In this document: piece by piece, positions 1,011-34,158 of the stretch
Layout: each line of letters starts with the position of its first letter
Position numbering within the stretch: position 1 is the first letter of the stretch
IMG/VR virus record: IMGVR_UViG_3300021962_000074
Span: 1-64,000 of that record
Strand: one strand, 5' to 3'
Source: a virus
DNA: 64,000 nucleotides
Translations under genes and position numbers: made by a program
Notes under the pieces: model-generated
Seen by the model: the letters and a program-made list of their open reading frames with translations, nothing else
Databases searched by the model: none
Told to the model about the DNA's origin: nothing

Positions 1011-1084
1011 GGGGGATTAGTTAAATGGGATAACCTCTGCCTTGCACGCAGAAGTTGACAGTTCGATTCTGTCATCCTCCACCA
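1011..1084 (+). tRNA. tRNA-Ala(TGC)
   Basis: Acceptor GGGGGAT/ATCCTCC, anticodon stem TCTGC/GCAGA around loop CTTGCAC, and a normal TTCGATT T loop. CCA is encoded. First clear tRNA of the array. Confidence 0.95.
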
Positions 1085-1089
1085 AATTT

Positions 1090-1166
1090 GGGTCTATAGT
1101 ATAACGGTTTATTATCTGTGACTCTTAATCACTAGGATGTAGGTTCGAATCCTACTAGACCCACCA
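1090..1166 (+). tRNA. tRNA-Lys(CTT)
   Basis: Acceptor GGGTCTA/TAGACCC, anticodon loop CTCTTAA giving CTT, T loop TTCGAAT, encoded CCA. The anticodon stem has a mismatch at its base. It complements the Lys(TTT) gene at 2746. Confidence 0.88.
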
Positions 1167-1172
1167 ATTTAT

Positions 1173-1249
1173 GCCCTGTTAGTTCAGAGGATTAGAACGC
1201 GACGCTACGAACGTCGAGGTCGGGAGTTCGAGTCTCTCACAGGGTGCCA
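1173..1249 (+). tRNA. tRNA-Arg(ACG)
   Basis: Anticodon stem CGACG/CGTCG around CTACGAA. Acceptor GCCCTGT/ACAGGGT starts with a G-T pair. CCA encoded. The A34 anticodon would need deamination to inosine to read all CGN codons it covers in bacteria. Confidence 0.93.
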
Positions 1250-1254
1250 GTTAT

Positions 1255-1338
1255 GCGCAGGTGGTGGAATGGTATACACGCTAGTCTTAGGAACTAGTGG
1301 CGAAAGTCGTGCGAGTTCGAGTCTCGCCCTGCGCACCA
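1255..1338 (+). tRNA. tRNA-Leu(TAG)
   Basis: Anticodon stem CTAGT/ACTAG around CTTAGGA; acceptor GCGCAGG/CCTGCGC; long class II variable arm TGGCGAAAGTCGT as expected for leucine. CCA encoded. Confidence 0.94.
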
Positions 1339-1552
1339 AATTGTCAGAGTCGTGGCTGACGTTATAGTGTCCACGAACAGTAGCCTAACTGAGTTTTGGC
1401 ATGTAGTATCTGGTCGCTGGGATGCGACAACAGAGAAGCCAAGAACGTGAATGAGCGTTTGGGTCAACCACGACATCTACGCAAGGAACGGCAAGAGGAG
1501 GAGTGGGAGCATGCGCGGACGTGCGTTACAAAAACCGAGTCCGCAAGATTTT
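1339..1552. other. Structured spacer between tRNA-Leu and tRNA-Asp
   Basis: The spacer is over 210 bases in an array where spacers are usually 3-10 bases. Hairpins are visible: GTCAG/CTGAC, CGTGG/CCACG, an outer TTGGC/GCCAA enclosing GTCGC/GCGAC, and GGAC/GTCC just before the tRNA. No ORF with a ribosome site and no known RNA family was recognised. Confidence 0.35.
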
Positions 1553-1629
1553 GGTCTGTTAGTGTAGTTGGTGAACATGCCTGCCTGTCACGCAGGAGAT
1601 CACGGGTTCGAGTCCCGTACAGACCGCCA
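1553..1629 (+). tRNA. tRNA-Asp(GTC)
   Basis: Anticodon stem CCTGC/GCAGG around CTGTCAC; acceptor GGTCTGT/ACAGACC; encoded CCA. Its 3 prime end lies only six bases before a hammerhead ribozyme. Confidence 0.95.
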
Positions 1630-1635
1630 AATTTT

Positions 1636-1684
1636 CTGTCTCTGATGAGTCCGTAGGGACGAAACGCAGTGATGCGTCAGACAG
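1636..1684 (+). ncRNA. Hammerhead ribozyme (type I)
   Basis: All core elements are present in order: stem I CTGTCT (1636-1641), CTGATGA (1642-1648), stem II GTCC-GTAG-GGAC (1649-1660), GAAA (1661-1664), stem III CGC with loop AGTGAT and GCG (1665-1676), TC before the scissile bond (1677-1678), and AGACAG (1679-1684) pairing perfectly with stem I. Stem I is the open helix, which makes it type I. Predicted cleavage is after C1678, leaving a 5 prime hydroxyl on the downstream RNA. Lying six bases after the CCA of tRNA-Asp, it probably separates that tRNA precursor from the structured segment that follows. Stem III is short, so activity in cis needs testing. Confidence 0.85.
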
Positions 1685-1797
1685 CGAATCTACCTTGTGG
1701 TGTAAGGTTTGCAAAGTTGATTAGGTCTCTGAAATATATTGACAAACGGCATCATATGCACTGCCTAGTAGACTTTCAGAGTGAACCACATTTTTTT
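1685..1797 (+). other. Hairpin with T run downstream of the hammerhead
   Basis: TGTGGT (1696-1701) pairs with ACCACA (1785-1790) and inside it CTCTGAAA (1727-1734) pairs with TTTCAGAG (1774-1781), with a small GCAT/ATGC hairpin within. Seven T follow at 1791-1797, so the 3 prime end looks like a rho-independent terminator or a processed stable RNA. A TTGACA at 1739-1744 lacks a good -10. Confidence 0.45.
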
Positions 1798-1874
1798 GGG
1801 TGTGTGGCACAGTTGGTTAGCGCACAGTCCTGATAAGACTGAGGTCGGTGGTTCGAATCCACCCACACCCACCA
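1798..1874 (+). tRNA. tRNA-Ile(GAT)
   Basis: Anticodon stem CAGTC/GACTG around CTGATAA; acceptor GGGTGTG/CACACCC; encoded CCA. It starts directly after the T run of the preceding structured segment. Confidence 0.95.
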
Positions 1875-1878
1875 ATTT

Positions 1879-1955
1879 CGGAGTGTAGCACAGTCTGGTA
1901 GTGCGCTTGCTTTGGGAGCAAGATGTCGGGAGTTCGAATCTCTCCACTCCGACCA
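1879..1955 (+). tRNA. tRNA-Pro(TGG)
   Basis: Acceptor CGGAGTG/CACTCCG, anticodon loop TTTGGGA within stem CTTGC/GCAAG, encoded CCA. It is the only proline tRNA seen in the window. Confidence 0.94.
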
Positions 1956-1961
1956 GTTTAT

Positions 1962-2036
1962 GGTTCCTTCGTCTAGCGGCTAGGACACAACCCTCTCAAG
2001 GTTGGAACACGGGTTCGATTCCCGTAGGAACTGCCA
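1962..2036 (+). tRNA. tRNA-Glu(CTC)
   Basis: Anticodon stem CAACC/GGTTG around CTCTCAA; acceptor GGTTCCT/AGGAACT; encoded CCA. Overall close to the Glu(TTC) gene at 2503, suggesting duplication and anticodon change. Confidence 0.92.
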
Positions 2037-2042
2037 GTTTAT

Positions 2043-2117
2043 TGGCGAGTAGATCAGTGGTAGATCAGCTGACTGTTAATCAGTATGTCGTAGGTTCGAT
2101 CCCTACCTCGCCAGCCA
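2043..2117 (+). tRNA. tRNA-Asn(GTT)
   Basis: Anticodon stem CTGA/TCAG around CTGTTAA; acceptor TGGCGAG/CTCGCCA; encoded CCA. Confidence 0.94.
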
Positions 2118-2122
2118 AATAT

Positions 2123-2197
2123 GCCCGTATAGCACAGTGGTAGTGCAATCGCCTTGTAAGCGATAGGTCCTCTGTTCGAATCAGAGTGCGGGCACCA
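2123..2197 (+). tRNA. tRNA-Thr(TGT)
   Basis: Anticodon stem ATCGC/GCGAT around CTTGTAA; acceptor GCCCGTA/TGCGGGC with a mismatch at the inner pair; encoded CCA. Confidence 0.93.
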
Positions 2198-2202
2198 GTT
2201 TT

Positions 2203-2278
2203 GCGAGATTAACTCAGTTGGTAGAGTGTCGCCTTTACACGGCGAATGTCGGGAGTTCGAGCCTCTCATCTCGCACCA
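2203..2278 (+). tRNA. tRNA-Val(TAC)
   Basis: Anticodon stem TCGCC/GGCGA around TTTACAC; acceptor GCGAGAT/ATCTCGC; encoded CCA. Confidence 0.94.
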
Positions 2279-2280
2279 AT

Positions 2281-2355
2281 GGTGACTATGGTGTAATGGT
2301 AGCACAAAAGTTTGTGGCACTTTTAGCGTCGGATCGTAACCGTCTAGTCACCCCA
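2281..2355 (+). tRNA. tRNA-His(GTG)
   Basis: Anticodon loop TTGTGGC gives GTG. The first G serves as the extra G-1 opposite C73, after which the acceptor GTGACTA/TAGTCAC pairs fully and CCA follows, the usual histidine identity. The T loop reads ATCGTAA rather than TTCGANT, so position 54 is A and 58 is T, and the T stem has one mismatch. Confidence 0.88.
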
Positions 2356-2361
2356 GTTTAT

Positions 2362-2436
2362 GCGGATGTAGCACAGTGGTAGTGCTTCTGCTTGCCAAGC
2401 AGAAGGTCGTGAGTTCGAATCTCATCATCCGCTCCA
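2362..2436 (+). tRNA. tRNA-Gly(GCC)
   Basis: Anticodon stem TCTGC/GCAGA around TTGCCAA; acceptor GCGGATG/CATCCGC; encoded CCA. Confidence 0.95.
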
Positions 2437-2441
2437 ATTCA

Positions 2442-2493
2442 TGTGAACCAACTAACTGTGATATCTTCCACAATCGGAAGAGTAGCGTTCACA
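2442..2493 (+). ncRNA. Short tRNA-like hairpin RNA
   Basis: TGTGAAC (2442-2448) pairs with GTTCACA (2487-2493), enclosing a hairpin CTTCC/GGAAG (2465-2469, 2476-2480). At 52 nt with one inner arm and no T arm or CCA it is not a functional tRNA by sequence. It occupies a tRNA slot in the array and may be a tRNA remnant or a small stable RNA. Confidence 0.35.
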
Positions 2494-2502
2494 CTCTCTT
2501 AT

Positions 2503-2577
2503 GTTCCCTTCATCTAGCGGTTAGGATGCTTCCCTTTCAAGGAAGCCACACGGGTTCGAATCCCGTAGGGAACGCCA
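2503..2577 (+). tRNA. tRNA-Glu(TTC)
   Basis: Anticodon stem CTTCC/GGAAG around CTTTCAA; acceptor GTTCCCT/AGGGAAC; encoded CCA. Paralogue of the Glu(CTC) gene at 1962. Confidence 0.95.
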
Positions 2578-2581
2578 ATTT

Positions 2582-2667
2582 TGCAGGATGTGTGCTAGCA
2601 GTAATGTATAGCCTCAATCGGATGCCTGGAGTGAGCAAACCCAACTATCCCATCCTGCATCTTTTTT
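2582..2667 (+). ncRNA. tRNA-sized hairpin RNA ending in a T run
   Basis: A 9-bp stem TGCAGGATG/CATCCTGCA (2582-2590, 2651-2659) encloses about 60 bases with a GCTA/TAGC arm, and six T follow at 2662-2667. Size and stem suggest a degenerate tRNA, but no T loop or CCA is present. It could equally act as a terminator or attenuator within the array. Confidence 0.4.
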
Positions 2668-2669
2668 AT

Positions 2670-2743
2670 TGAGGGATCGTCTAAAGGCAGGACGCATGAC
2701 TTTGAATCATGCTATCTTGGTTCGAATCCAAGTCCCTCAGCCA
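2670..2743 (+). tRNA. tRNA-Gln(TTG)
   Basis: Anticodon stem CATGA/TCATG around CTTTGAA; acceptor TGAGGGA/TCCCTCA; encoded CCA. Nearly identical outside the anticodon arm to the Gln(CTG) gene at 3745. Confidence 0.94.
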
Positions 2744-2745
2744 AT

Positions 2746-2820
2746 GGGTCTGTGGCGCAATGGTAGCGCAGTTGGCTTTTAACCAATTGGTTCCGAGTTC
2801 GAGTCTCGGCGGACCCACCA
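2746..2820 (+). tRNA. tRNA-Lys(TTT)
   Basis: Anticodon stem TTGG/CCAA around CTTTTAA; acceptor GGGTCTG/CGGACCC; encoded CCA. Confidence 0.95.
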
Positions 2821-2826
2821 ATTTTC

Positions 2827-2900
2827 GCCCTCTTAGTTAAAAAGCATAACACATTCTTGGTAAGAATGAGTCGGTGGAGCGTTACCACCAGAGGGCACCA
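2827..2900 (+). tRNA. tRNA-Thr(GGT)
   Basis: Anticodon stem CATTC/GAATG around TTGGTAA; acceptor GCCCTCT/AGAGGGC; encoded CCA. The T loop is AGCGTTA between GGTGG and CCACC, so A54/T58 replaces the usual T54/A58. Confidence 0.88.
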
Positions 2901-2903
2901 GTT

Positions 2904-2978
2904 TGCAGTGTGGAGAAGTAGAAACTCGCTAGGCTCATAACCTGGAGATCATGGGTGCAAATCCCATCACTGCTACCA
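2904..2978 (+). tRNA. tRNA-Met(CAT), first copy
   Basis: Anticodon stem AGG/CCT around CTCATAA; acceptor TGCAGTG/CACTGCT has a T-T mismatch at the first pair, a feature reminiscent of initiator tRNA, but the anticodon stem lacks the three consecutive G-C pairs of initiators. T loop TGCAAAT. Could be initiator, elongator or lysidine-modified Ile. Confidence 0.82.
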
Positions 2979-2983
2979 ATTAT

Positions 2984-3068
2984 GGACAAGTGGGTGAGTG
3001 GTTAAAACCGACTGACTGTAAATCAGTTGCCTACGGCTACGGTGGTTCGAATCCATCCTTGTCCACCA
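2984..3068 (+). tRNA. tRNA-Tyr(GTA)
   Basis: Anticodon stem ACTGA/TCAGT around CTGTAAA; class II variable arm as in bacterial tyrosine tRNA; acceptor GGACAAG/CTTGTCC; encoded CCA. Confidence 0.95.
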
Positions 3069-3076
3069 ATTTTTTT

Positions 3077-3166
3077 GGAAGAGTGGCAGAGTCTGGTTTA
3101 TTGCACTTGTCTTGAAAACAAGCAACCGTAAAAGGTTCGTGGGTTCAAATCCTACCTCTTCCGCCA
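3077..3166 (+). tRNA. tRNA-Ser(TGA)
   Basis: Anticodon stem CTTGT/ACAAG around CTTGAAA; long variable arm AACCGTAAAAGGTT; acceptor GGAAGAG/CTCTTCC; encoded CCA. Confidence 0.95.
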
Positions 3167-3170
3167 ATTT

Positions 3171-3244
3171 GCCTCGCTGGTGTAACGGTAACATAACTGT
3201 CTCCAAAACAGTTGTTGGGAGTTCGAGTCTCTCGCGGGGTGCCA
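3171..3244 (+). tRNA. tRNA-Trp(CCA)
   Basis: Anticodon stem ACTGT/ACAGT around CTCCAAA; acceptor GCCTCGC/GCGGGGT with two G-T pairs; encoded CCA. Confidence 0.93.
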
Positions 3245-3249
3245 GTTTT

Positions 3250-3326
3250 GCGGTCGTAGTTCAGTTGGATAGAACATCTGCCTTCTAAGCAGAGAGTCGG
3301 GGGTTCGAATCCCTCCGATCGCGCCA
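3250..3326 (+). tRNA. tRNA-Arg(TCT)
   Basis: Anticodon stem TCTGC/GCAGA around CTTCTAA; acceptor GCGGTCG/CGATCGC; encoded CCA. Confidence 0.95.
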
Positions 3327-3331
3327 ATTAT

Positions 3332-3421
3332 GGAGACTTGGCTGAGTGGTCGATAGCGGCATCCTGCTAAGATGTTTTTCGTGAAAGCGAAACGTGGGTT
3401 CGAATCCCACAGTCTCCGCCA
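3332..3421 (+). tRNA. tRNA-Ser(GCT)
   Basis: Anticodon loop CTGCTAA within GCATC/GATGT; long variable arm TTTCGTGAAAGCGAAA; acceptor GGAGACT/AGTCTCC; encoded CCA. Confidence 0.95.
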
Positions 3422-3426
3422 ATTAT

Positions 3427-3502
3427 GGTGAGGTAGCATAGCGGCTAATGCAGCACTTTCATACGGTGTTTATCGTGGGTTCGAGTCCCACCCTCACTAC
3501 CA
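3427..3502 (+). tRNA. tRNA with CAT anticodon, second copy (Met or Ile2)
   Basis: Anticodon loop TTCATAC within GCACT/GGTGT; acceptor GGTGAGG/CCTCACT opens with a G-T pair; CCA encoded. With two CAT tRNAs present, one may be methionine and the other lysidine-modified isoleucine, although a TAT-anticodon tRNA at 4478 already covers ATA. Confidence 0.82.
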
Positions 3503-3503
3503 T

Positions 3504-3579
3504 GTCGCCTCAGCTGAACTAGTGATAGCGTCTGCCTGAAGAGCAGAAGAGGTTGGAGCGTAACCAACAGGCGACACCA
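3504..3579 (+). tRNA. tRNA-Phe(GAA)
   Basis: Anticodon stem TCTGC/GCAGA around CTGAAGA; acceptor GTCGCCT/AGGCGAC; encoded CCA. The T loop AGCGTAA between GTTGG and CCAAC has A54/T58 instead of T54/A58. Confidence 0.9.
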
Positions 3580-3584
3580 ATTTT

Positions 3585-3661
3585 GCCCAGATGACGGAAT
3601 TGGCATACGTGTCTGACTCAAAATCAGGATTTTGTGGGTTCGACTCCCACTCTGGGCACCA
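3585..3661 (+). tRNA. tRNA-Leu(CAA) with short variable loop
   Basis: Anticodon loop CTCAAAA within TCTGA/TCAGG gives CAA; acceptor GCCCAGA/TCTGGGC; encoded CCA. The variable region is only about five bases (ATTTT), whereas bacterial leucine tRNAs carry a class II arm like those at 1255 and 5510. Confidence 0.85.
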
Positions 3662-3663
3662 AT

Positions 3664-3738
3664 GTTACGGTGGCTGAAAGGTTAGGCGGCAGTCTGCAAA
3701 ACTGCTTCATGCTGGTTCGATTCCAGTCCGTAACTCCA
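3664..3738 (+). tRNA. tRNA-Cys(GCA)
   Basis: Anticodon stem GCAGT/ACTGC around CTGCAAA; acceptor GTTACGG/CCGTAAC; encoded CCA. Confidence 0.95.
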
Positions 3739-3744
3739 ATTTAT

Positions 3745-3818
3745 TGAGGGATCGTCTAACGGCAGGACGCAAGACTCTGACTCTTGCTATCTAGGTTCGA
3801 ATCCTAGTCCCTCAGCCA
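3745..3818 (+). tRNA. tRNA-Gln(CTG)
   Basis: Anticodon stem CAAGA/TCTTG around CTCTGAC; acceptor TGAGGGA/TCCCTCA; encoded CCA. Recent duplicate of the Gln(TTG) gene at 2670 judging from the near-identical body. Confidence 0.93.
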
Positions 3819-3823
3819 ATCAT

Positions 3824-3899
3824 GGGCGTGTAGTTCAGTGGTATGAACGTCTCCTTGACATGGAGAAGGTCGCTGGTTCGATCCCAGCCATGCCCACCA
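3824..3899 (+). tRNA. tRNA-Val(GAC)
   Basis: Anticodon stem TCTCC/GGAGA around TTGACAT; acceptor GGGCGTG/CATGCCC; encoded CCA. Confidence 0.94.
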
Positions 3900-3900
3900 T

Positions 3901-3975
3901 ATCCTCGTGGTGAAACGGATATCACGGTTCTCTCCTAAAGAATCATTGCAGGTTCGATTCCTGCCGAGGATGCCA
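3901..3975 (+). tRNA. tRNA-Arg(CCT)
   Basis: Anticodon loop CTCCTAA within GTTCT/AGAAT; acceptor ATCCTCG/CGAGGAT; encoded CCA. Third arginine isoacceptor, reading AGG. Confidence 0.93.
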
Positions 3976-3988
3976 ACTAAATAGATGC

Positions 3989-4492
3989 ATGGAACCAAAA
4001 ATCTATACATACGACGAAGTCCGCGCCATGGCGATGGATGGCGACATCATGTTTCTTACAGTCAATAAGAAAGATTATCTTTCTAGACTGACGTCGTGGT
4101 TCACCAAATCGCCGTTCACACATGCGGCATTTTTGTTTTGGTATCATGGTCGTCTAATGGTTGTTGAATCAACCACGCATGGTGGCATTCGCATCGTGCA
4201 AGCATCTACATACAAGGATCGCAATTTTGGATTGATTGCTGCACCACGTCCGTGGGAGTTCATCATTGATGATGCCCTAGTGCGTAGTGGCACTGCAGAG
4301 TATGGCTGGTTCAGTGCGATGTATATCGGAATGCGTGAATTTGCTTTAAAACAATTCAATGTACGTCTACCAGTCAACAAGAACAATCGCAACAAAGCCT
4401 GTAGTGAATTTGTGGCAGAAGTGTTAGGTCTAAAAGATGTTGACATTTCGCCAAAAAGATTATATGATATATTAAATGCTCCTGTAGTGTAA
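3989..4492 (+). CDS. NlpC/P60-like (YiiX-type) cysteine hydrolase
   Basis: A 167-residue protein with the pattern of permuted NlpC/P60 papain-like hydrolases: a strand-rich start with GDIMFLT, then THAAFLF carrying a likely catalytic His (residue about 45), and KACSEFVAEVLGL carrying the likely catalytic Cys (about 137). Family members cut amide bonds in peptidoglycan or lipid-linked substrates, so a role in lysis or envelope modification is plausible. It lies between tRNA-Arg(CCT) and tRNA-Ile(TAT). Its last 15 bases, including the stop, lie inside the tRNA at 4478, so tRNA processing would destroy the mRNA 3 prime end. No strong ribosome site is seen; CTAAATAG at 3978 resembles a weak late promoter. 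The substrate is not known. Confidence 0.7.
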   Translation: MEPKIYTYDEVRAMAMDGDIMFLTVNKKDYLSRLTSWFTKSPFTHAAFLFWYHGRLMVVESTTHGGIRIVQASTYKDRNFGLIAAPRPWEFIIDDALVRSGTAEYGWFSAMYIGMREFALKQFNVRLPVNKNNRNKACSEFVAEVLGLKDVDISPKRLYDILNAPVV

Positions 4493-4572
4493 CGGTTAGC
4501 ACGCGAGGCTTATACTCTCGATCTCCGCCAGATTAGCGGGTAGTCTAGGTTCGAATCCTAGCAGGAGCACCA
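4478..4572 (+). tRNA. tRNA with TAT anticodon (Ile) and long variable arm
   Basis: Acceptor GCTCCTG/CAGGAGC, anticodon stem CGAGG/TCTCG around CTTATAC giving TAT, T loop TTCGAAT and encoded CCA. Between anticodon and T arms there are about 24 bases containing a CCGC/GCGG stem, a class II arm normally limited to Leu, Ser and bacterial Tyr. The 5 prime end overlaps the stop of the preceding gene. Confidence 0.82.
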
Positions 4573-4582
4573 ATAAATAAAT

Positions 4583-4656
4583 GCGGGGTTGGCATAGTGG
4601 TTGTGTCCCAGCCTTCCAAGCTGGCTACATGGGTTCGATTCCCATACTCCGCTCCA
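4583..4656 (+). tRNA. tRNA-Gly(TCC)
   Basis: Anticodon stem CCAGC/GCTGG around CTTCCAA; acceptor GCGGGGT/ACTCCGC; encoded CCA. Last gene of the main array. Confidence 0.94.
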
Positions 4657-4680
4657 GTTTTTTAGAAGGGAGATAAGAAG

Positions 4681-4944
4681 ATGAAGAAGTTCCTAACAGC
4701 AATGGTTATGACTACAGTTGTGACTACATCACATGCTGATGTGAATACAGCCGTTCCTGCACCAACAGAGCAAGAATCATTTACAGTCAAGTGGCATCCA
4801 ACTTCAGTGGTCATCGGCGCAATCGCTGGTGGTGCACTTGTTGGTGGAGTCGGTGCAGTGATCGTCGGCGGTCTCGTCGGCGAAGGTGTCATTCGTATTA
4901 TTAAGAAGAAACAAGAGCAGACTGCTAAGGAAACGCAAGAATGA
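4681..4944 (+). CDS. Small secreted or membrane glycine-zipper protein
   Basis: 87 residues. An N-terminal signal sequence (MKKFLTAMVMTTVVTTSHA) is followed by a short polar stretch and a glycine-rich hydrophobic segment (about residues 44-68, GAIAGGALVGGVGAVIVGG) typical of glycine-zipper membrane helices; the tail is lysine-rich. AAGGGAGAT lies upstream as ribosome site. The stop overlaps the ATG of a lipoprotein gene (ATGA), so the two are probably translationally coupled. A role in membrane disruption at lysis is possible but not shown by any specific motif. Confidence 0.65.
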   Translation: MKKFLTAMVMTTVVTTSHADVNTAVPAPTEQESFTVKWHPTSVVIGAIAGGALVGGVGAVIVGGLVGEGVIRIIKKKQEQTAKETQE

Positions 4945-5111
4945 TTCGTATTCTATTCCTAGCAGCATTCCTACTCATTGGCTGTGAAAAAGATCCAGTC
5001 ACCACCGAGGCTCGACTACCTGAGCCAACTTTCAAAGTCAACACTCCGCAGCAATGGAAAGAATATTGCGCAAGAGAGGGACAGGAGGATCCAGCATGTC
5101 CTTCCAACTAA
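4941..5111 (+). CDS. Small lipoprotein (possible outer spanin)
   Basis: A 56-residue reading frame. It starts with a hydrophobic stretch ending in a lipobox, LLIGC, so Cys15 should be lipidated after signal peptidase II cleavage. The mature part is short, polar, with several prolines and two further cysteines. It overlaps the preceding gene by ATGA and the following protease gene by 16 bases. Small lipoproteins tightly overlapped with other lysis genes are the form of phage outer spanins, but no clear inner-spanin partner with a periplasmic coiled coil adjoins it, so that remains a guess. Confidence 0.6.
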   Translation: MIRILFLAAFLLIGCEKDPVTTEARLPEPTFKVNTPQQWKEYCAREGQEDPACPSN

Positions 5112-5506
5112 ACGAAAACAACGAAGTCATACAGACTCCAGAACTCATGGAGTTACTAAACAAGACCAATCGTCACTTCAATAAATTTCGCTATGAATAC
5201 GATGAGAATCTTCATCGTCAGATTGACTACTGGACTGCACTGATTGACAAATACAATGCTGGTGACTGCGACGACTACGCACTGTCAAAGCGCAAGAGGC
5301 TGATTGAAGAAGGTGTTCCATATGAATGCCTGTTTCCTACAATCTGCACCGTGGGTAAAGAAGGTCATCTTGTTCTTGTCGTAAGAACAGACATCTGCGA
5401 TCTTCTTCTGGACAACATTGAGCAGCGAGTGGTTGGCGTTGATCGCGTGAACTACAAGTGGTGGTATCGTTTAGATCCCGTGAACAAATCATGGGTAATG
5501 TTATAG
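5096..5506 (+). CDS. Transglutaminase-like cysteine proteinase (BTLCP family)
   Basis: 136 residues from the ATG at 5096, chosen because AGGAGG precedes it and no start upstream has one. The stretch GDCDDYALSKRKRL (about residues 57-70) holds the catalytic Cys, and GHLVLVVRT with the following LLLDN supplies the His and Asp of the papain-like triad, matching the bacterial transglutaminase-like cysteine proteinase family. Phage and bacterial members are mostly uncharacterised; proteolysis or crosslinking of envelope or virion proteins is possible. The start lies inside the lipoprotein gene and the stop is four bases from tRNA-Leu(TAA). Confidence 0.75.
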   Translation: MSFQLNENNEVIQTPELMELLNKTNRHFNKFRYEYDENLHRQIDYWTALIDKYNAGDCDDYALSKRKRLIEEGVPYECLFPTICTVGKEGHLVLVVRTDICDLLLDNIEQRVVGVDRVNYKWWYRLDPVNKSWVML

Positions 5507-5509
5507 TAT

Positions 5510-5594
5510 GCGAGTGTGGCGGAATCGGTATACGCAGCAGACTTAAAATCTGCCACTTTCGAGTTTGTGGGTTCGAGTCCCACCACTCGCACCA
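5510..5594 (+). tRNA. tRNA-Leu(TAA)
   Basis: Anticodon stem GCAGA/TCTGC around CTTAAAA; class II variable arm CACTTTCGAGTTTGT; acceptor GCGAGTG/CACTCGC; encoded CCA. An isolated tRNA outside the main array, placed between two protein genes. Confidence 0.95.
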
Positions 5595-16568: not shown

Positions 16569-16697
16569 ATGAATAGTAGAGAGAAAAACGACAGACCTGA
16601 AGATCCGAGACTCAAGTTGATCGAAGGAATCATGTATGGTTTGGTCATATCGACATTCCTTTGGGGAATGATAATCGCAGCATGGTTACTTTTCTAA
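16569..16697 (+). CDS. 42-residue single-span membrane protein
   Basis: A charged N-terminal half (MNSREKNDRPEDPRLKLIEG) followed by one membrane helix (IMYGLVISTFLWGMIIAAWLLF) that runs to the C-terminus. GAAAGG lies at a suitable distance before the ATG and the gene has its own promoter about 30 bases upstream. Its end overlaps the next gene by 16 bases. Size and form suggest a small membrane regulator; function unknown. Confidence 0.55.
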   Translation: MNSREKNDRPEDPRLKLIEGIMYGLVISTFLWGMIIAAWLLF

Positions 16698-17362
16698 ATC
16701 GCTCTATGTTTAATCATATCAAACACGAATTTCCTACACTCATTACGGAAAATGTAGATGGATCTAGGATGTACAAGACACCGACAGGTGAGGCTTATCC
16801 GTCGGTAACCACGGTTCTTTCTGACTATGGTAAGAAAGAAATCATGGAATGGCGTGCCCGTGTAGGCGAAGAGAAAGCCAATAAGATCTCTCGCCAAGCC
16901 ACTACACGAGGCACTTCCGTTCACTCTGTCATTGAGAAGTATATCAACAACGAAGATGTATCTGGCGTTGAGATGATGCCGAACGTCAAGTCTATCTTTC
17001 ATAAGATGAAGGTGGAACTGGACAAACTGCAGAACATTCACTGTCTTGAGACTCGCCTGTTCTCTCATGAATTGAAACTGGCTGGTCAGGTAGACTGTAT
17101 CGCCGAGTACAATGGTGTGCTCTCTGTCATTGACTTTAAGACTGCCAATCGTCTAAAGAGCAAGGACAAGATTGCAAATTATTTTATGCAGGGTGCTGCG
17201 TACTCTAAGATGTTCGAGGAGATGACGAATCATAAGATCGAGCAGGTTGTGATCCTGATTGGCGTTGATTCGGCTTCTTTTACGCAAGTTTTGAAGGTGA
17301 AACCAGAGGATTATCTAGAGGAACTGAAAGGCTATATAAATAGATACAGAGGATTAGCCTAA
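16682..17362 (+). CDS. RecB/Cas4-like PD-(D/E)XK exonuclease
   Basis: 226 residues from ATG 16682; an ATG 27 bases downstream (MFNHIKHEFP) is an alternative. The nuclease core is visible: a Glu in CLETRLFS, GQVDCIAEYNGVLSVIDFKTA (Asp, then D-x-K) and a following Gln-Tyr-like helix AAYSKMF. T4-like phages of cyanobacteria and other marine hosts carry similar proteins annotated as exonucleases, probably acting in recombination or host DNA breakdown. Confidence 0.75.
   Translation: MVTFLNRSMFNHIKHEFPTLITENVDGSRMYKTPTGEAYPSVTTVLSDYGKKEIMEWRARVGEEKANKISRQATTRGTSVHSVIEKYINNEDVSGVEMMPNVKSIFHKMKVELDKLQNIHCLETRLFSHELKLAGQVDCIAEYNGVLSVIDFKTANRLKSKDKIANYFMQGAAYSKMFEEMTNHKIEQVVILIGVDSASFTQVLKVKPEDYLEELKGYINRYRGLA
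17335..17342 (+). promoter_or_regulatory. T4-type late promoter
   Basis: TATAAATA inside the end of the exonuclease gene, 19 bases before the thermonuclease ATG; a start near 17349 would leave a short leader. Confidence 0.45.
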
Positions 17363-17721
17363 TGATAAGACAATACATCTTCGAAGGACTAGTAGATCGC
17401 GTGGTTGATGGCGACACCTATGACATCATTCTTGATCTAGGTTTCTACATCACACACACCATTCGTGTAAGACTCAAGGGTGTTGATACACCTGAAGTCT
17501 ACGGCAAGAATGCCAGTGAGGAAGGTCGCGTTGCTTCTGCTTATGTGAAATCATTGATTGAAAATCAGCGTGTGGTCGTACAGACTTATAAGAATGCACC
17601 AAGTTCATTCAATCGCTGGGAAGCAGATGTGTATTTCAATCTGCTTCTGGAAGATGGGTCAACCAGCCAAGTGAGTTTGGCTGATCATTTAGTTGAGAAA
17701 GGATATGCCGTTAGGGTATAA
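17362..17721 (+). CDS. Staphylococcal-nuclease-like (thermonuclease) protein
   Basis: 119 residues with the SNase OB-fold signature: VVDGDTYDIIL (calcium-binding Asp), IRVRLKGVDTPEV (Arg and Asp of the active site), EGRVASAYVKSLI and NRWEADVYF. It should cut DNA or RNA with calcium. No signal peptide, so it acts in the cytoplasm, for example in host DNA degradation. The start overlaps the exonuclease stop, linking two nucleases. The end overlaps the tmRNA promoter. Confidence 0.85.
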   Translation: MIRQYIFEGLVDRVVDGDTYDIILDLGFYITHTIRVRLKGVDTPEVYGKNASEEGRVASAYVKSLIENQRVVVQTYKNAPSSFNRWEADVYFNLLLEDGSTSQVSLADHLVEKGYAVRV

Positions 17722-17722
17722 T
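17693..17722 (+). promoter_or_regulatory. tmRNA promoter
   Basis: TTGAGA (17693-17698), 18-base spacer, TATAAT (17717-17722). The start near 17729 fits the beginning of the permuted tmRNA precursor. Confidence 0.7.
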
Positions 17723-17728
17723 AGAATT

Positions 17729-18044
17729 ATAGTGGTATGAAGCGAAATGAAGGTGCTGCGGACTCGGGTTCGATTCCCGACATCTCCACCAAAAGTGTAC
17801 TGTAAGTATGATTCTGTCGAAACACTAGATTCAGAAGTCAATAAATGTTTCGCAAGTACACTTCTTATGGGGATGCACTGGCTTCGACGGGGCAAGATAG
17901 TTAAGCAGACCACTGGAAAGGCGACGAACCTAATTCGCGCAAACTAAGTAATCGCAGCAAATGACGATTATTATGATTATGCCCTAGCGGCTTAATCTGA
18001 GTTTTGCAGGTTGGACTTGGAAACAGAATCAACCTGCACTTTTT
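17729..18044 (+). ncRNA. ssrA: Circularly permuted tmRNA (two-piece)
   Basis: The order is inverted compared with ordinary tmRNA. The acceptor piece comes first: a T arm CGGGTTCGATTCCCG and CATCTCC-A-CCA, ending at 17791. The coding piece starts at 17869 with GGGGATG, pairing fully with CATCTCC (one G-T pair), followed by CACTGGCTTCGACGGG, the tmRNA D-loop consensus. The tag reading frame at 17954-17995 gives (A)ANDDYYDYALAA then TAA, with the usual LAA end for protease recognition. The 77-base intervening segment is closed by AAGTGTAC/GTACACTT (17793-17800, 17856-17863) and should be removed. Resume codon is GCA at 17954 by analogy with the bacterial UAGUC-GCA context, otherwise 17957. In cells tmRNA rescues stalled ribosomes with SmpB. 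Confidence 0.9.
18006..18044 (+). terminator. Terminator of the tmRNA gene
   Basis: GCAGGTTG (18006-18013) and CAACCTGC (18030-18037) form a perfect 8-bp stem, then AC and five T. It may also be the final helix of the coding piece. Confidence 0.75.
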
Positions 18045-18078
18045 CAACAATCCAATAATTGGAGTTTGGTAGATATAA

Positions 18079-18744
18079 ATGAATATACATCAAGTCTATT
18101 TTGATGATTCACAAAGAGTTAATCTAAACAACGAATTCATTCCATTTCGTAACATTCCGAATATGGAAACTCCATATCCCCAGTTTTATGAATATCCGAT
18201 ATTTAAATTTCTCCAGAACAAGTATGAAGAAGAGAAATATAATGGTCTATGGGGTTATGTCAGCTGGAGATTTCAACAGAAACTTCAAAGATTTTATCCT
18301 AATCTTACACCTGCAGATTATTGTCAGTGGATAATTGATAATCCAGGTTATGATTTTTATCATATGAATGTAGTGTGGAGAGAAACTGAATTGTTTGATA
18401 ATATATTTTTTCAAGGCGAGAAATGTCATCCAGGACTACTAGGCTTCTTTACAAGATTGGTTCATCTAAAAGGGTGGGATTTCGATTTACATAAAAAATA
18501 TGATCCAGAGTATTCCCTCACTTGCCACTATTATGTGATGAACACTAAGACATGGCGTCAGTGGCTAAGTTTTTTAGATGACACATTTGAGTTTGTTAAA
18601 TCTGATGCTCAATTATACAACTATGCGAATCGTGAAAGTAGGCACAGAAACAGTCCTTGGTATAACTGGGCGTTCATAGCCGAACGGATCATCACCATAT
18701 GGATTCACTTGAATCCTCAAGTCAAATTTCTGGCATACAAATAG
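18079..18744 (+). CDS. Hypothetical protein, possibly glycosyltransferase-like
   Basis: 221 residues rich in aromatic residues: FYEYPIFKFL, YNGLWGYVSWRFQQK, GYDFYHMNVVW, and a C-terminal WYNWAFIAERIITIWI. Segments of this type occur in phage and bacterial glycan-modifying proteins, but no DxD motif or nucleotide-sugar site is obvious, so the assignment is weak. GGAG precedes the start by about 20 bases. It lies between the tmRNA and the endolysin gene. Confidence 0.5.
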   Translation: MNIHQVYFDDSQRVNLNNEFIPFRNIPNMETPYPQFYEYPIFKFLQNKYEEEKYNGLWGYVSWRFQQKLQRFYPNLTPADYCQWIIDNPGYDFYHMNVVWRETELFDNIFFQGEKCHPGLLGFFTRLVHLKGWDFDLHKKYDPEYSLTCHYYVMNTKTWRQWLSFLDDTFEFVKSDAQLYNYANRESRHRNSPWYNWAFIAERIITIWIHLNPQVKFLAYK

Positions 18745-18754
18745 AGATAAGCTA

Positions 18755-19342
18755 ATGTTCAATAAAACCTTTGCTGCAATTCTAATTGCAGCCACGTTCG
18801 TAATCTCACACCTATACGTTTCCGATCAGCATATGATTCATACAAAGGGTCTGGAACAGCAGATCTTTGAGTTGGCGATTCAAAATAACACTATGAATGG
18901 ATTGAAAGACGAACTGGTGCGCCAAGAAACCTTCAAGCGTCAACTTGAATGCCTAGCCATGAACATCTATCACGAGGGTCGCGGTGAATCATACGATGGC
19001 AGACTGGCAATTGCTACAGTCACCATGAATCGTGTGAACAAGGATCGTTTCCCAAGTACAGTTTGTGGAGTTGTATGGCAAGCCACGAACAAGGGTTGCC
19101 AGTTCTCTTGGACTTGCGACGGCAAGAGCGATCGTATACGCAATCAAGAAGCCTATGCTGAGTCAGTAGAAATGGCTGAAAATGTTTTGCTAAATGGACT
19201 GCGTTCGTATAAAATAGGTAGAGATGTGTATCATTATCATGCTGAATACGTGAATCCTCGATGGGAAGAACGATGGGATGCTGAGATGATTGCGCAAATT
19301 GACAAACACAAATTCTACAGGGTTGCCATGTATGCTAATTGA
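18755..19342 (+). CDS. SleB-like cell wall hydrolase (endolysin candidate)
   Basis: 195 residues. An N-terminal membrane helix (about 5-22, TFAAILIAATFVISHLYV) suggests signal-anchor-release secretion. After a linker comes the SleB/Hydrolase_2 domain: CLAMNIYHEGRGESYDGRLAIATVTMNRV with the catalytic Glu, then CGVVWQ, CQFSWTCDGKSD and HYHAEYVNPRW. SleB-type enzymes are lytic transglycosylases of peptidoglycan. With the holin-like gene at 8674 it would form the lysis pair. The end overlaps the GMP reductase start by 11 bases. Confidence 0.8.
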   Translation: MFNKTFAAILIAATFVISHLYVSDQHMIHTKGLEQQIFELAIQNNTMNGLKDELVRQETFKRQLECLAMNIYHEGRGESYDGRLAIATVTMNRVNKDRFPSTVCGVVWQATNKGCQFSWTCDGKSDRIRNQEAYAESVEMAENVLLNGLRSYKIGRDVYHYHAEYVNPRWEERWDAEMIAQIDKHKFYRVAMYAN

Positions 19343-20339
19343 CCATGAAGTGAAACTTGACTATTCTGATGTTCTGTTAGTTCCGCGAGAGTCTGATCTA
19401 TCAAGTAGATCACAAGTTGACCTTGAGGTCAATCATTTTGACATCCCTGTAGTTCCTATCATTGCAGCGAATATGGATGGCGTTGGAACTTTTGCGATGG
19501 CAAGAGAACTGGCTAAATATAAAATCCTGACCGCTCTTACTAAACACTATTCACTCGACGAGTTATTGGACTTTTATGCATCAGATTCATCTAGGTACGC
19601 TGTTTATTCTATGGGCTGTAATAAAGCTGATTATGAGAAGTTTACTGCTTTCGATAGCAGCTGTAACGACCTTGGTATTGCTCACCCCATTGGTGTTTGT
19701 ATTGACGTTGCTAATGGTTATACTTCACATTTTGAAGAGTTCGTGGCGACGATTCGCGAAGAGTATCCAGACTACATCCTCATGGTCGGCAACGTCGTCA
19801 CGCCAGAACGAACCGAAAGATTGGTAGACGCAGGAGCCGATATCGTAAAAATCGGAATCGGTCCTGGCTCGGTCTGCACCACGCGAAAGTTGACTGGTGT
19901 TGGCTATCCGCAATTTTCTGCCGTGGCTGAGTGCGCATCAGCCGCAATTGGAGCAGGTGGAAACATTGTTGCGGATGGCGGCATTACATGTCCTGGCGAT
20001 GCTGCCAAGGCTTTCGCTGCTGGTGCAAAATATGTAATGATTGGCGGTATGTTCGCTGGTCACGTCGAAGGTGGTAATACTTCTGATGAAGTTAAATTCT
20101 ACGGCATGGCTTCCAAGGCTGCGCAGGATCAGCATAACGGTGGCGTGGCTGAGTATCGCGCCTCTGAAGGCAAGGAAGTGAAGATTGCTTTCCGTGGTCC
20201 TGTAAGTAACACCGTGCGTGAATTATTGGGTGGCATCCGTTCAGCCTGTACTTATATCGGTGCTGAGTCTTTGTCTGAAATGCCTCGACGCGCAAAGTTC
20301 GTTCGTGTCAATCGCCAACTCAATAATGTGTTTGCATGA
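19332..20339 (+). CDS. GMP reductase / IMP dehydrogenase family enzyme
   Basis: 335 residues from ATG 19332. It begins with DHEVKLDYSDVLLVP, has the phosphate-binding and catalytic loop KIGIGPGSVCTTRKLTGVGYPQ (Cys at about 182) and VADGGITCPGDAAKAFAAGA with GGMFAGH. CBS domains of IMP dehydrogenase are absent, and length is close to bacterial GMP reductase (about 345), which converts GMP to IMP. As a phage auxiliary gene it would redirect purines from host RNA breakdown. IMP dehydrogenase activity cannot be fully excluded. Its stop overlaps the gp33 start. Confidence 0.82.
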   Translation: MLIDHEVKLDYSDVLLVPRESDLSSRSQVDLEVNHFDIPVVPIIAANMDGVGTFAMARELAKYKILTALTKHYSLDELLDFYASDSSRYAVYSMGCNKADYEKFTAFDSSCNDLGIAHPIGVCIDVANGYTSHFEEFVATIREEYPDYILMVGNVVTPERTERLVDAGADIVKIGIGPGSVCTTRKLTGVGYPQFSAVAECASAAIGAGGNIVADGGITCPGDAAKAFAAGAKYVMIGGMFAGHVEGGNTSDEVKFYGMASKAAQDQHNGGVAEYRASEGKEVKIAFRGPVSNTVRELLGGIRSACTYIGAESLSEMPRRAKFVRVNRQLNNVFA

Positions 20340-20560
20340 TGGCTACACGTGAAGAGAAAAATACTTTCTCAATGATGATCCTAACTCGAGCAGAACAACT
20401 ACAAACGGATCACATGGATGCTATTATCACCTATTGTGAGGAAGTTGAACTTGAAGTCGAGATTGCTGCTTCGTTGATCAATGATGTGCTATTATCTAAG
20501 TTGGAAGAAGAAGCACAACAAAATAATGTGATCCAGAGGTCTGCTAAATTACCATTATGA
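20339..20560 (+). CDS. 33: Late transcription coactivator, gp33-like
   Basis: 73 residues: REEKNTFSMMILTRAEQLQTDHMDAIITYCEEVELEVEIAASLINDVL, then a C-terminal RSAKLPL. The pattern and the position next to gp59 and gp32 match gp33 of T4-like phages, which bridges RNA polymerase and the sliding clamp to activate late promoters. It overlaps the GMP reductase stop by ATGATG and the next gene by four bases. The TATAAATA sites in this window would be its targets. Confidence 0.78.
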   Translation: MATREEKNTFSMMILTRAEQLQTDHMDAIITYCEEVELEVEIAASLINDVLLSKLEEEAQQNNVIQRSAKLPL

Positions 20561-21162
20561 CAGGTATTGAGTTTTGCGCAACTTACCTTGCCGTGAAACT
20601 ACATTTTAGCAACGAGAAGTATAACTTCTTTGCAGGTAGTGGTAAGATAAAGATCGGCGAGGAAGCATTCAATCGCCGCAAAGATAAATTCAAGTTTCAT
20701 CGTCTGGCTCGAAACATTCCTGATGATGAAGTGGTTCCGTTCCTTGTGGCTAACTTCTTACAGAATGGTGACTGTTGGACGCAGAATCTACTTGAGGAAG
20801 AAGCAAGATCAGTGTATAACAAACATCGCAAGATTACACAAGCGATGACTGAACACTATAAGAATGATCTTGCTAAGTTACCAAAAGGCAAAGAGGCAAT
20901 CAATGAATTGTTTGAGGTCAAGGATGGAAAGCATCCAAAACTCTTGACAATGTATATGCAAGGCGATATACTATTAGAGACGATGGTGATATTGAATAAC
21001 ATATTCAACTACGTCGCTCATTGGGATAAACAAATCAAGGAAGATATAATTTATCCAAAGATTTCAAGAAAGATTCGTAAGTACGGATCGTTCCTGGAAG
21101 TGAATGTCACAAGGTATAAAGAGGTAACAAAAACTTGCCTTTTACAGTGTGATGATATATAA
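20557..21162 (+). CDS. 59: DNA helicase loader gp59
   Basis: 201 residues. TGIEFCATYLAVKLHFSNEKYNFF, FHRLARNIPDDEVVPFLVANFLQN and KYGSFLEVNVTRY are features of T4 gp59, the all-helical protein that loads the replicative helicase on forks covered with gp32. T4 gp59 is 217 residues, so the length fits. It lies between gp33 and gp32 as in T4-like genomes. The 3 prime end contains the promoter for gp32. Confidence 0.88.
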   Translation: MTGIEFCATYLAVKLHFSNEKYNFFAGSGKIKIGEEAFNRRKDKFKFHRLARNIPDDEVVPFLVANFLQNGDCWTQNLLEEEARSVYNKHRKITQAMTEHYKNDLAKLPKGKEAINELFEVKDGKHPKLLTMYMQGDILLETMVILNNIFNYVAHWDKQIKEDIIYPKISRKIRKYGSFLEVNVTRYKEVTKTCLLQCDDI

Positions 21163-21222: not shown

Positions 21223-22122
21223 ATGTCTAGTCTATCCGCACTAAAGAAAAACAATTCTCTTGAAAAACTAACCCGAGCAATGGAATCAACCGCTGCTGGT
21301 GGTGGTAATTTGAAGAGAGAAGATGATCGTTTTTGGGTCCCAGAGGTTGATAAAAGTGGCAATGGTTACGCTGTTATTCGTTTTCTTGATACTCCTTCCG
21401 TTGATGGTGATGATGGTCTCCCTTGGGTTCAGATCTGGTCTCATGGATTCCAAGGACCAGGAGGTTGGTATATTGAGAATTCTCTCACAACCATCGGTCA
21501 AAAAGATCCTGTCTCCGAATATAACACCCAGCTCTGGAACTCTGGCATCGAAGCCAACAAGGAAATCGCACGTAAGCAGAAGCGCAAGCTGACCTATTAC
21601 GCAAATATCTACGTTGTCTCTGATCCGAAGCGCCCTGAGAACGAGGGTAAGGTTTTCTTGTACAAGTTTGGCAAGAAGGTCTTTGAGAAGATCAATGCAA
21701 AGATCAATCCAGAGTTTGAGGATGAAAAGCCAATGAATCCTTTTGACTTCTGGAAGGGTGCGAACTTCAAGTTGAAGATTCGCAATTACGAGGGCTATCG
21801 TAACTATGACAAGTCAGAGTTTGACACACAGTCTGCTCTACTTGATGGTGATGATAAGCAGATTGAGAAGGTCTGGAAGGCTGCGCATTCTTTGAAGGAA
21901 TTCGTAAAGTCTGAGAACTTCAAGTCCTATGACGAACTCAAGGAAAAGCTGAATCGTGTTCTAGGTGCTGGTGGTGCGACTCGCGCTGCTGCTCCGAAGA
22001 TCGAGGAGGAAGAGGCACCTTGGGAAGAGCCAAAGGCTGCGAAGCCACGTAAGACTGCAGAGGCTGTCACTGTAGACGAGGATGATGATCTAAGTTACTT
22101 TGACAAGTTGGCTGCTGAGTAA
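21223..22122 (+). CDS. 32: Single-stranded DNA-binding protein gp32
   Basis: 299 residues. The N-terminal basic segment LKKNNSLEKLTRAME serves cooperative binding; the OB-fold core contains FWVPEVDKSGNGYAVIRFLD, VQIWSHGFQGPGGWYIENSLTTIG, ANIYVVSDPKRPENEGKVFLYKFGKKVFEKI and NPFDFWKGANFKLKIRNYEGYRNYDKSEF; the C-terminus is acidic (VDEDDDLSYFDKLAAE) for partner binding. Interestingly the Zn-ribbon H-x3-C...C-x2-C set of T4 gp32 is not evident. It has its own strong promoter and GAGG ribosome site, and ends at a bidirectional terminator. Confidence 0.93.
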   Translation: MSSLSALKKNNSLEKLTRAMESTAAGGGNLKREDDRFWVPEVDKSGNGYAVIRFLDTPSVDGDDGLPWVQIWSHGFQGPGGWYIENSLTTIGQKDPVSEYNTQLWNSGIEANKEIARKQKRKLTYYANIYVVSDPKRPENEGKVFLYKFGKKVFEKINAKINPEFEDEKPMNPFDFWKGANFKLKIRNYEGYRNYDKSEFDTQSALLDGDDKQIEKVWKAAHSLKEFVKSENFKSYDELKEKLNRVLGAGGATRAAAPKIEEEEAPWEEPKAAKPRKTAEAVTVDEDDDLSYFDKLAAE

Positions 22123-32358: not shown

Positions 32359-34158
32359 ATGTCTGTAACAGTAGGATTAGTTAAGAAAATTGTTTTAGCA
32401 TATATTGGTGGTACTAAATTGATGCCTGTGCCAACTGTTAAAATCGGTGGCACAACAGCTGTCTCTCAACTTGGTGGTTTGGCTGGTATGGCATCTTCAT
32501 TTATGTCAGGAGGTCTTGGTGGTATTGCAGGTGCACTGAGTGGTGGTCTGAGTGGTGCATTAGCGCAATCATTGAGTGGCGGATTGACGTCAGCATTTGG
32601 AAGTCTACAAAGTCAACTTGGTAGTTTGACAGCAGGTTTACCTTCTCTGGGATCTTTCGGAGAGGGTATCACTGGAGCGTTGTCTGGTAACTTGGGTGGA
32701 TTAGAAAATCTAACTCAAAAACTCAGTGATTTAAATGTTGATATGAATTCACTCAGTAACTATGTTGGTCAGGTTGGGAGTCTATCAACCATTACACAAT
32801 TAAAAACTGCAGTGGGAGAGGTCGGCGCGGGGATTTCTATTGGAGAACTAACCAACATAAGCGCATTAAATACCAAATTACAAGGCATTGGAGTCAATCC
32901 TGCAGACTTTGGTAATTTAAATGAACTGACCAATGTAGGTAAATTGTCAGATACTTTAAGCAATATGGGAGTGATTGGAGATTTCAATTTTGGAGATCTA
33001 TCTGGCATAACTGCAAGCATACCATCACAAGTACAGCCAATTAATATGGGCAATTTTGGTGCTTTAGTCGAGGAAAATGGTGGATTGAATGGATTAGCTA
33101 AATCACTTGCGACTGGTGGGGTTTCATTAGATGAAACTCTAGCGTCTATATCTGTGAATCCAGCAGCTGTTAATATCAATGCAGCTAAGTCAACATTGTC
33201 TAGCCTAACTGCATGTAACTATAGTGGACTAGATTCAACGCTGTCTTCCATCTCAGGAGAAGCTGCATTGGCTCCTGCGTATCAACAACTAAAGTTAGCC
33301 TTGGGTGGTCCAGACGGATTGAGTGGATCGGTTGCATACGTGAATGCGTTTGAAGACCACACCAATAGATTATCTGGAGTTACGCTTTCATCAGATATAA
33401 CTGGAATCATACCAGAAGAAGAAAATACAGAGATATTTGAATACAAGTATGACCTACCAATTAATACTCAGACTGTGATCGCACACTTCAATCCACAGAA
33501 GATTCGATCAGCTAAGTTCTTCGTCCAAGCCACATCTAATGTCGACCATCAATCCTCTGAAGTATTCGTGGTCCATGATAACCAAAGAGTGTATACTCGA
33601 GAGGTTGATGTAATCTATACACATGATCCGTTTATTACATTTACCAGCCAATTTGCAGCTGATAATGTTACAATTATGGCTACCAGTACTAAAGTCAATA
33701 CTGATATGGTAATCTATAGCATTAGATTACCTGTTATCACAAAGGCTAACTCGGATCACACCTTTGACCAAAGTAAATTGATCGAAAATGCTCGCGCTCT
33801 ATCTGGATTCTTCCCAGAAGATAAGGTAGATTATGTGGCTGCACAGGCAGGTAGTCTACAAAATGGCGGTTCCGTTTCCCAGCTGAATACAGAGATAAAC
33901 GAGGCTTTGGTAAAATTGCAGAGCAGTCAATTTACCTCCCTATCAACTGAGGGTAAAAAAGAGTACATAAACTCAATTGCAACTGCTATAAATACAAAGA
34001 GCGTAAGTTTACAACAATCAATTGACAAAGATCTATCAGCCTACGCTGATGTGGAGAAATTGGTGAATGCGGCTGATGTAGTTTCTACTCTGGTCGTAAA
34101 TTATGCATCAACAGATACTAAGAGATTGTATGACGTTACAACACTAAAGGCTGATTAA
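32359..34158 (+). CDS. Baseplate-associated structural protein
   Basis: 599 residues. The first 130 are glycine/serine/leucine-rich (repeated GGLxG and SGGL units); the middle continues with leucine-rich weak repeats (NxLxxLxxVGxL); the last 260 form a beta domain (LPINTQTVIAHFNPQKIRSAKFFVQATSN) plus a helical end. Proteins of this type lie between gp5 and gp25 in T4-like phages of marine hosts and are virion components of unknown role. Stop overlaps the gp25 start. Confidence 0.55.
   Translation: MSVTVGLVKKIVLAYIGGTKLMPVPTVKIGGTTAVSQLGGLAGMASSFMSGGLGGIAGALSGGLSGALAQSLSGGLTSAFGSLQSQLGSLTAGLPSLGSFGEGITGALSGNLGGLENLTQKLSDLNVDMNSLSNYVGQVGSLSTITQLKTAVGEVGAGISIGELTNISALNTKLQGIGVNPADFGNLNELTNVGKLSDTLSNMGVIGDFNFGDLSGITASIPSQVQPINMGNFGALVEENGGLNGLAKSLATGGVSLDETLASISVNPAAVNINAAKSTLSSLTACNYSGLDSTLSSISGEAALAPAYQQLKLALGGPDGLSGSVAYVNAFEDHTNRLSGVTLSSDITGIIPEEENTEIFEYKYDLPINTQTVIAHFNPQKIRSAKFFVQATSNVDHQSSEVFVVHDNQRVYTREVDVIYTHDPFITFTSQFAADNVTIMATSTKVNTDMVIYSIRLPVITKANSDHTFDQSKLIENARALSGFFPEDKVDYVAAQAGSLQNGGSVSQLNTEINEALVKLQSSQFTSLSTEGKKEYINSIATAINTKSVSLQQSIDKDLSAYADVEKLVNAADVVSTLVVNYASTDTKRLYDVTTLKAD

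Follow-up and report, generated by a model that had tools for sequence, protein, structure and literature searches.

A beta-type permuted tmRNA gene in a T4-like phage and its address between exonuclease and late-promoter regulator genes

When a circularly permuted transfer-messenger RNA (tmRNA) gene is met in a viral genome, it may be a working gene of the virus, a means of disturbing the host, or a leftover of host DNA. This question is raised by a locus in IMG/VR record IMGVR_UViG_3300021962_000074, of which we analyzed positions 1 to 64,000 (64,000 nucleotides, hereafter the window). A first-pass annotation had proposed that a permuted tmRNA gene carried by a T4-like phage lies at 17729-18044. 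The gene is genuine, well conserved and ordinary in kind, its parts, pairing, tag frame and conservation all being read from the sequence. We regard it as very likely that it is a complete, selectively maintained beta-type permuted tmRNA gene (ssrA) of a T4-like phage, with a rescue role that would depend on the host.

Identity and parts of the permuted gene

Two Rfam covariance models exceeded their cut-offs at the proposed place and strand, namely RF04321 (tmRNA_permuted) at 17731-17995 (+; 133.4 bits, cut-off 47, E 6.3e-26) and RF01850 (beta_tmRNA) at 17681-18046 (105.7 bits, cut-off 84, E 4e-31), while a scan of the small region with relaxed limits added two matches only, both far under their cut-offs. 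Lower-scoring matches within overlapping Rfam clans were dropped, and the gene is assigned to the beta type by RF01850 being both over its cut-off and the top scorer among the overlapping clan matches. ARAGORN likewise called a permuted tmRNA (tmRNA*) at 17699-18086, with the tag AANDDYYDYALAA. Because both models exceed their cut-offs and ARAGORN makes the same call, the permuted gene can be taken as real, and the comparison with relatives given below agrees. The carrier was also correctly named as T4-like, as the record encodes gp59, gp32, a gp33-type late-promoter regulator, head closure and DNA end protector proteins, and baseplate wedge and hub proteins. The parts of the gene are as follows.

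17693-17722, + strand: sigma-70-like promoter (TTGAGA 17693-17698, 18-nucleotide spacer, TATAAT 17717-17722)
17729-17791, + strand: acceptor piece, from the RF04321 and RF01850 alignments and the letters, with a predicted 5' end
17731-17736, 17764-17780, 17781-17787 and 17788-17791, + strand: P2 5' strand, T arm, acceptor 3' strand (CATCTCC) and ACCA of the acceptor piece
17792-17868, + strand: intervening segment, with a stem of 17793-17801 and 17855-17863, presumably removed in maturation
17869-18044, + strand: coding piece, from Rfam, fold and letters, with a predicted 3' end
17869-17875 and 17909-17914, + strand: acceptor 5' strand (GGGGATG) and P2 3' strand of the coding piece, which also holds the PK1 region, the tag frame and the 3' hairpin
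17954-17995, + strand: tag reading frame AANDDYYDYALAA followed by TAA, from ARAGORN and the letters
18005-18038, + strand: 3' hairpin of the coding piece (fold z -3.43), followed by T's

The order is thus permuted, with the acceptor piece 5' of the coding piece and the covariance score above cut-off. As had been claimed, the acceptor strands pair over all seven positions (17869-17875 with 17781-17787, 7/7), including a G-U third pair, and ACCA is encoded directly 3' of the acceptor strand. A G-U third pair in the acceptor stem is the alanine identity signal. The P2 helix (17731-17736 with 17909-17914) is paired at 6/6 positions, and the tag frame closes, as described beforehand, on the hydrophobic -AA end ALAA and a stop. 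In a model that leaves pseudoknots aside, 17727-18044 folds better than 100 of 100 shuffles (z -3.14).

Conservation of the RNA and of its address

Two viral relatives allow the parts to be weighed against their surroundings. One (L089) is the same phage, with 99.96% identity over 12,503 bases, and the other (L048) is a relative with approximately 80% identity around the gene. Against L048, the acceptor piece carries 0 substitutions in 63 bases and the coding piece at its start 1 in 71 (5 in 85 up to the tag), whereas the nuclease gene just upstream carries 13 in 53, the intervening segment 31 in 77 with 15 gapped bases, the tag frame 12 in 42 with 3 gapped, and the 3' part 27 in 49 with 8 gapped. 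The tag reads AANDDYYDYALAA in the window and ANDDVYEMALAA in L048; the arms of the intervening stem read AAGTGTACT/AGTACACTT and AAAGCATTCT/AGAATGCTTT, respectively, and pair in both. The comparison suggests that the RNA parts are frozen amid diverged flanks and that the precursor stem and 3' hairpin have changed while still pairing.

A wider set came from a pattern scan of IMG/VR, which at least 119 viral stretches match. ARAGORN made a permuted call in 110 of the 119 matches listed, finding 53 different tags (that of L021, at least, looks misread), of which those in 107 of the 110 loci end in L/M/I/V-AA. In Rfam searches on 12 of the 119 loci, mostly window-like, RF04321 passed in 12/12 and beta_tmRNA in 11/12. 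A search of 50,697 phage records found no match to a 4.9-kb baseplate stretch of the window (DNA search) or to the protein at 32359-34158 (protein search). Adjoining one viral permuted tmRNA (L091, 5582-5618) is an Rfam abiF RNA match (56 bits, cut-off 37).

The intervening hairpin that had been pointed out proved real and covarying. In 98 distinct sequences from the 119 viral loci and the window, pairing between the ten bases that follow CCA and an arm ending 4 nucleotides before GGGG is seen in 95.5% of cells, compared with 68.1% when partners were shuffled among loci (standard deviation 1.2; maximum of 50 shuffles 71.1%) and 36-60% in eight alternative stem registers. All ten positions show at least four standard pair types each, a count that kinship among the loci inflates. 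We rejected the precursor stem as a phage-only trait, as the bacterial beta-type gene L163 carries one and, by eye, other bacterial genes do too; locus L130 and 29 of the 30 loci L159-L188 did not fit the pattern of the stem script, and the segment was not picked up there.

A quick tree (113 rows, 162 columns) places the window, L089 and L048 on a starred branch, and its viral rows cluster (6 changes compared with a shuffled mean of 22.9), with 50 of its 109 inner branches open and no firm order between viral branches and bacterial ones. It covers typed loci with an ARAGORN permuted call and one row per identical core. Regular expressions had dropped 32 rows beforehand, comprising viral L005 and L030, 25 of the 30 loci L159-L188, bacterial beta-type L130, L230 and L231, and L144 and L247; the label "alpha" for L159-L188 (except L163), two of which are in the tree, is our own and not based on RF01849. 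As half of the forks are weak, we draw from the tree no direction of transfer between phages and bacteria.

The position of the gene among its neighbors is conserved as well. In the window these neighbors are the following.

16661-17362, + strand: PD-(D/E)XK exonuclease, upstream neighbor (phrog_298, E 2.5e-69)
20336-20560, + strand: late-promoter regulator (gp33-type), downstream neighbor (phrog_254, E 9e-14)
20557-21162, + strand: gp59 helicase loader (phrog_269, PF08993)
21223-22122, + strand: gp32 single-strand binding protein (phrog_224, PF08804)

Nine window proteins were searched against the 119 listed viral loci (L089 counted), taking the best match per locus, and matched 92 of them; the loci are cut stretches, so that misses are not absences. 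The exonuclease lies upstream of the tmRNA in 67 loci and PhoH in 23, while downstream lie a cell-wall hydrolase in 79, gp33 in 66, gp59 in 65 and gp32 in 40, with at least one of the last three in 71. All of these matches are on the same strand as the tmRNA. A GMP reductase gene lies between the tmRNA and gp33 in the window (19290-20339; NF003470, 426.4 bits, cut-off 397), and in the cut stretches of the 119 loci it was matched in two only, L089 and L048.

The address also occurs without the RNA. In cyanophage DSL-LC03 the genes for exonuclease and gp33 overlap, and no tmRNA was found; none was found either in marine virus records AG-345-L05 and AG-345-O18, whose exonuclease and gp33 matches are approximately 125 bases apart. 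The HTVC008M stretch starts at gp59 and hence falls outside this comparison. Approximately 1.4 kb upstream of the PhoH match in AG-345-O18 is a manA RNA (L199, 1257-1454; 184.7 bits).

In the excerpts of published work on phage tmRNA available to us we did not find the exonuclease-tmRNA-gp33 address described in full. A fixed address of exonuclease, tmRNA, gp33, gp59 and gp32, common to alpha- and beta-type genes, is a modest new point. More tentatively, and with rather more doubt than conviction, we suggest that in a large group of T4-like phages the gap between exonuclease and gp33 has long been a site dedicated to tmRNA, in which alpha- and beta-type permuted genes evolve inside phages with a frozen RNA core and fast-changing tags. 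Phage tmRNAs would then form a lineage of the phages' own, with tags retuned and possible passage to bacteria, instead of being recent host copies. With a conserved address and variable tags beside a constant RNA core, phage retuning of rescue and tagging becomes testable.

Elsewhere in the window, ARAGORN found 32 tRNA genes in 1011-5594 and Rfam adds one at 3504-3576 (anticodon by eye GAA, Phe), so that the 33 cover all 20 amino acids in a single T4-like phage record. Between them, at 5054-5506, lies a gene for a transglutaminase-like cysteine proteinase (PF06035, 86.9 bits, cut-off 27).

Proposed working, timing and alternatives

A single precursor would be transcribed from the sigma-70-like promoter, its intervening stem would stack beneath the acceptor stem, and host enzymes would excise the loop, with RNase P generating the coding piece's 5' end and tRNA 3'-end nucleases the CCA end. 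The two mature pieces would be held together by the P2 helix and the acceptor helix. The G-U third pair would guide host alanyl-tRNA synthetase in charging the acceptor piece, and host SmpB would carry the charged tmRNA to ribosomes that have stalled on broken messages; each such ribosome would be freed and the stub tagged with the ALAA end, a presumed signal for host proteases. The phage would benefit in that ribosomes stay usable during message degradation. In the available part of PMC3985003, maturation of two-piece tmRNA is held to proceed probably via RNase P and tRNase Z. Processing by host enzymes and use by host SmpB appear the most likely course; the host protein is proposed as partner because a search of the 76,670-base record, possibly a partial one, gave no match to SmpB (PF01668).

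The promoter overlaps the end of the upstream nuclease gene and its hexamers match 11 of 12 consensus positions. This part of the first-pass annotation is supported because both hexamers recur in L048 at corresponding positions (TTGACA and TATAAT), even though the promoter stretch differs there at 9 of its 30 bases. The terminator that had been recognized there fared less evenly. A hairpin followed by T's does lie at 18005-18038, but a terminator scan called none, and L048 has a similar hairpin, alike in its inner part and changed in its outer stem, without the T run; the fold in L048 (z -1.33, 22 of 200 shuffles equally good) is not significant alone. We read the structure as the 3' hairpin of the tmRNA itself, possibly doubling as a transcription stop. 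The earlier placing of the tmRNA's action late in infection was not supported, as the promoter in front is sigma-70-like and the T4 late-promoter word TATAAATA has its closest exact upstream match on that strand at 17335. In the part of PMC9004378 available to us, the authors postulate early action for the tmRNA of phage Melnitz.

Several points count against a working, host-dependent rescue gene as set out above: one promoter site of this quality is not above chance (shuffles give a mean of 1.8); pairing of P2 across loci exceeds that with shuffled partners by a small margin (mean 6.74 compared with 6.24, n=97); and a phage SmpB may possibly be encoded elsewhere, given that the record may be partial. 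The lack of an SmpB match in the record would also suit a tmRNA whose main role is that of a decoy or competitor, one that occupies SmpB, the synthetase or the cycle of the host tmRNA and thereby alters host tagging instead of performing ordinary rescue. We consider this improbable, as the example adduced for such a role lacks a tag frame, whereas the tag frame of the window gene and its ALAA end are intact and L/M/I/V-AA ends are kept in 107 of the 110 ARAGORN-called viral loci. A passive, functionless remnant of host DNA, be it a captured ssrA or an attachment-site fragment, might be suspected from the frequent use of tmRNA genes as integration sites of genomic islands (PMC11915505, in the excerpt available), but is scarcely credible for a gene that is complete, with RNA parts frozen against diverged flanks, a covarying precursor stem and one address kept in many T4-like contigs; the attachment-site fragment was rejected on completeness and conservation.

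Comparison with known systems and the host question

Phages with two-piece tmRNA genes are already known and are common in environmental virus data, and a phage-borne permuted gene is no surprise because such genes are already in print. As far as the excerpts consulted go, a published survey reports 133 unique tmRNA structures encoded by 402 of 18,146 phage genomes, 53 of them two-piece by ARAGORN and 50 from marine or aquatic samples; a database with the RF04321 model holds 79 bacteriophage tmRNA sequences (PMC11915505); Bradyrhizobium elkanii phages carry tmRNAs (PMC12656738); and an SspB analogue, but no tmRNA, was found in T4-like phage pf16 (PMC5587285).

The claim that the gene indicates host type proved weak. 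Stenotrophomonas and Xanthomonas phages do carry permuted genes, yet all three Stenotrophomonas genomes examined (L121, L122 and L123) hold a permuted tmRNA beside a standard one-piece tmRNA, and an alpha-type gene is reported from a phage that infects a non-alpha host (excerpt of PMC9004378). These three records were the only matches to a looser pattern in bacterial genome contigs, where the strict pattern gave 0. On the quick tree their permuted copies fall together with those from four Stenotrophomonas/Xanthomonas phages (support 94, unstarred), and near L121 two of ten open reading frames tested match PHROG families, all of unknown function. The permuted tags called by ARAGORN in the three are unusual (ANQVDYHQARIAA, ANADYYDQDEEVILRVA), with the third apparently a misreading. 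RF04321 was over cut-off in 5 of 369 sampled bacterial genomes of the class of genome G001 (2 of the 5 above 100 bits) and in 109 of 299 of its phylum, and RF01850 in 2/60, 2/4, 3/31 and 11/31 of four bacterial genome samples; these frequencies give a hint of host groups. The conserved address of tmRNA in phages is also a warning not to infer the host of a phage from the type of its tmRNA.

Methylophilales phage Melnitz (MZ577097; PMC9004378) is, like the phage of the window, a T4-like phage with a permuted ssrA at the same address, in the order PhoH, PDDEXK nuclease, two small genes, tmRNA, gp33-type late-transcription coactivator, gp59 and gp32. Its tmRNA is alpha-type (RF01849, 106.7 bits), whereas that of the window is beta-type; it has a glutamine riboswitch match at the 3' end, whereas Rfam matched no riboswitch in the window, and the cell wall hydrolase lies upstream of the tmRNA in Melnitz but downstream in the window. 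From 31 matching records we opened five phages with names, namely Stenotrophomonas phages Marzo and DLP_6 and Xanthomonas phages X1, Rb1 and XacN1. All five exceed the RF04321 cut-off and three of them that of beta_tmRNA; on the quick tree four of the five fall on another branch than the window and XacN1 elsewhere, and the tmRNA of Marzo sits between tRNA genes. Bacterial beta-type permuted tmRNAs (RF01850) share with the window the gene order, T arm and tag type and, in L163, the intervening stem, but they score up to 305.5 bits compared with 105.7, and the window differs from them in its longer tag and in standing with L089 and L048 on a branch of its own.
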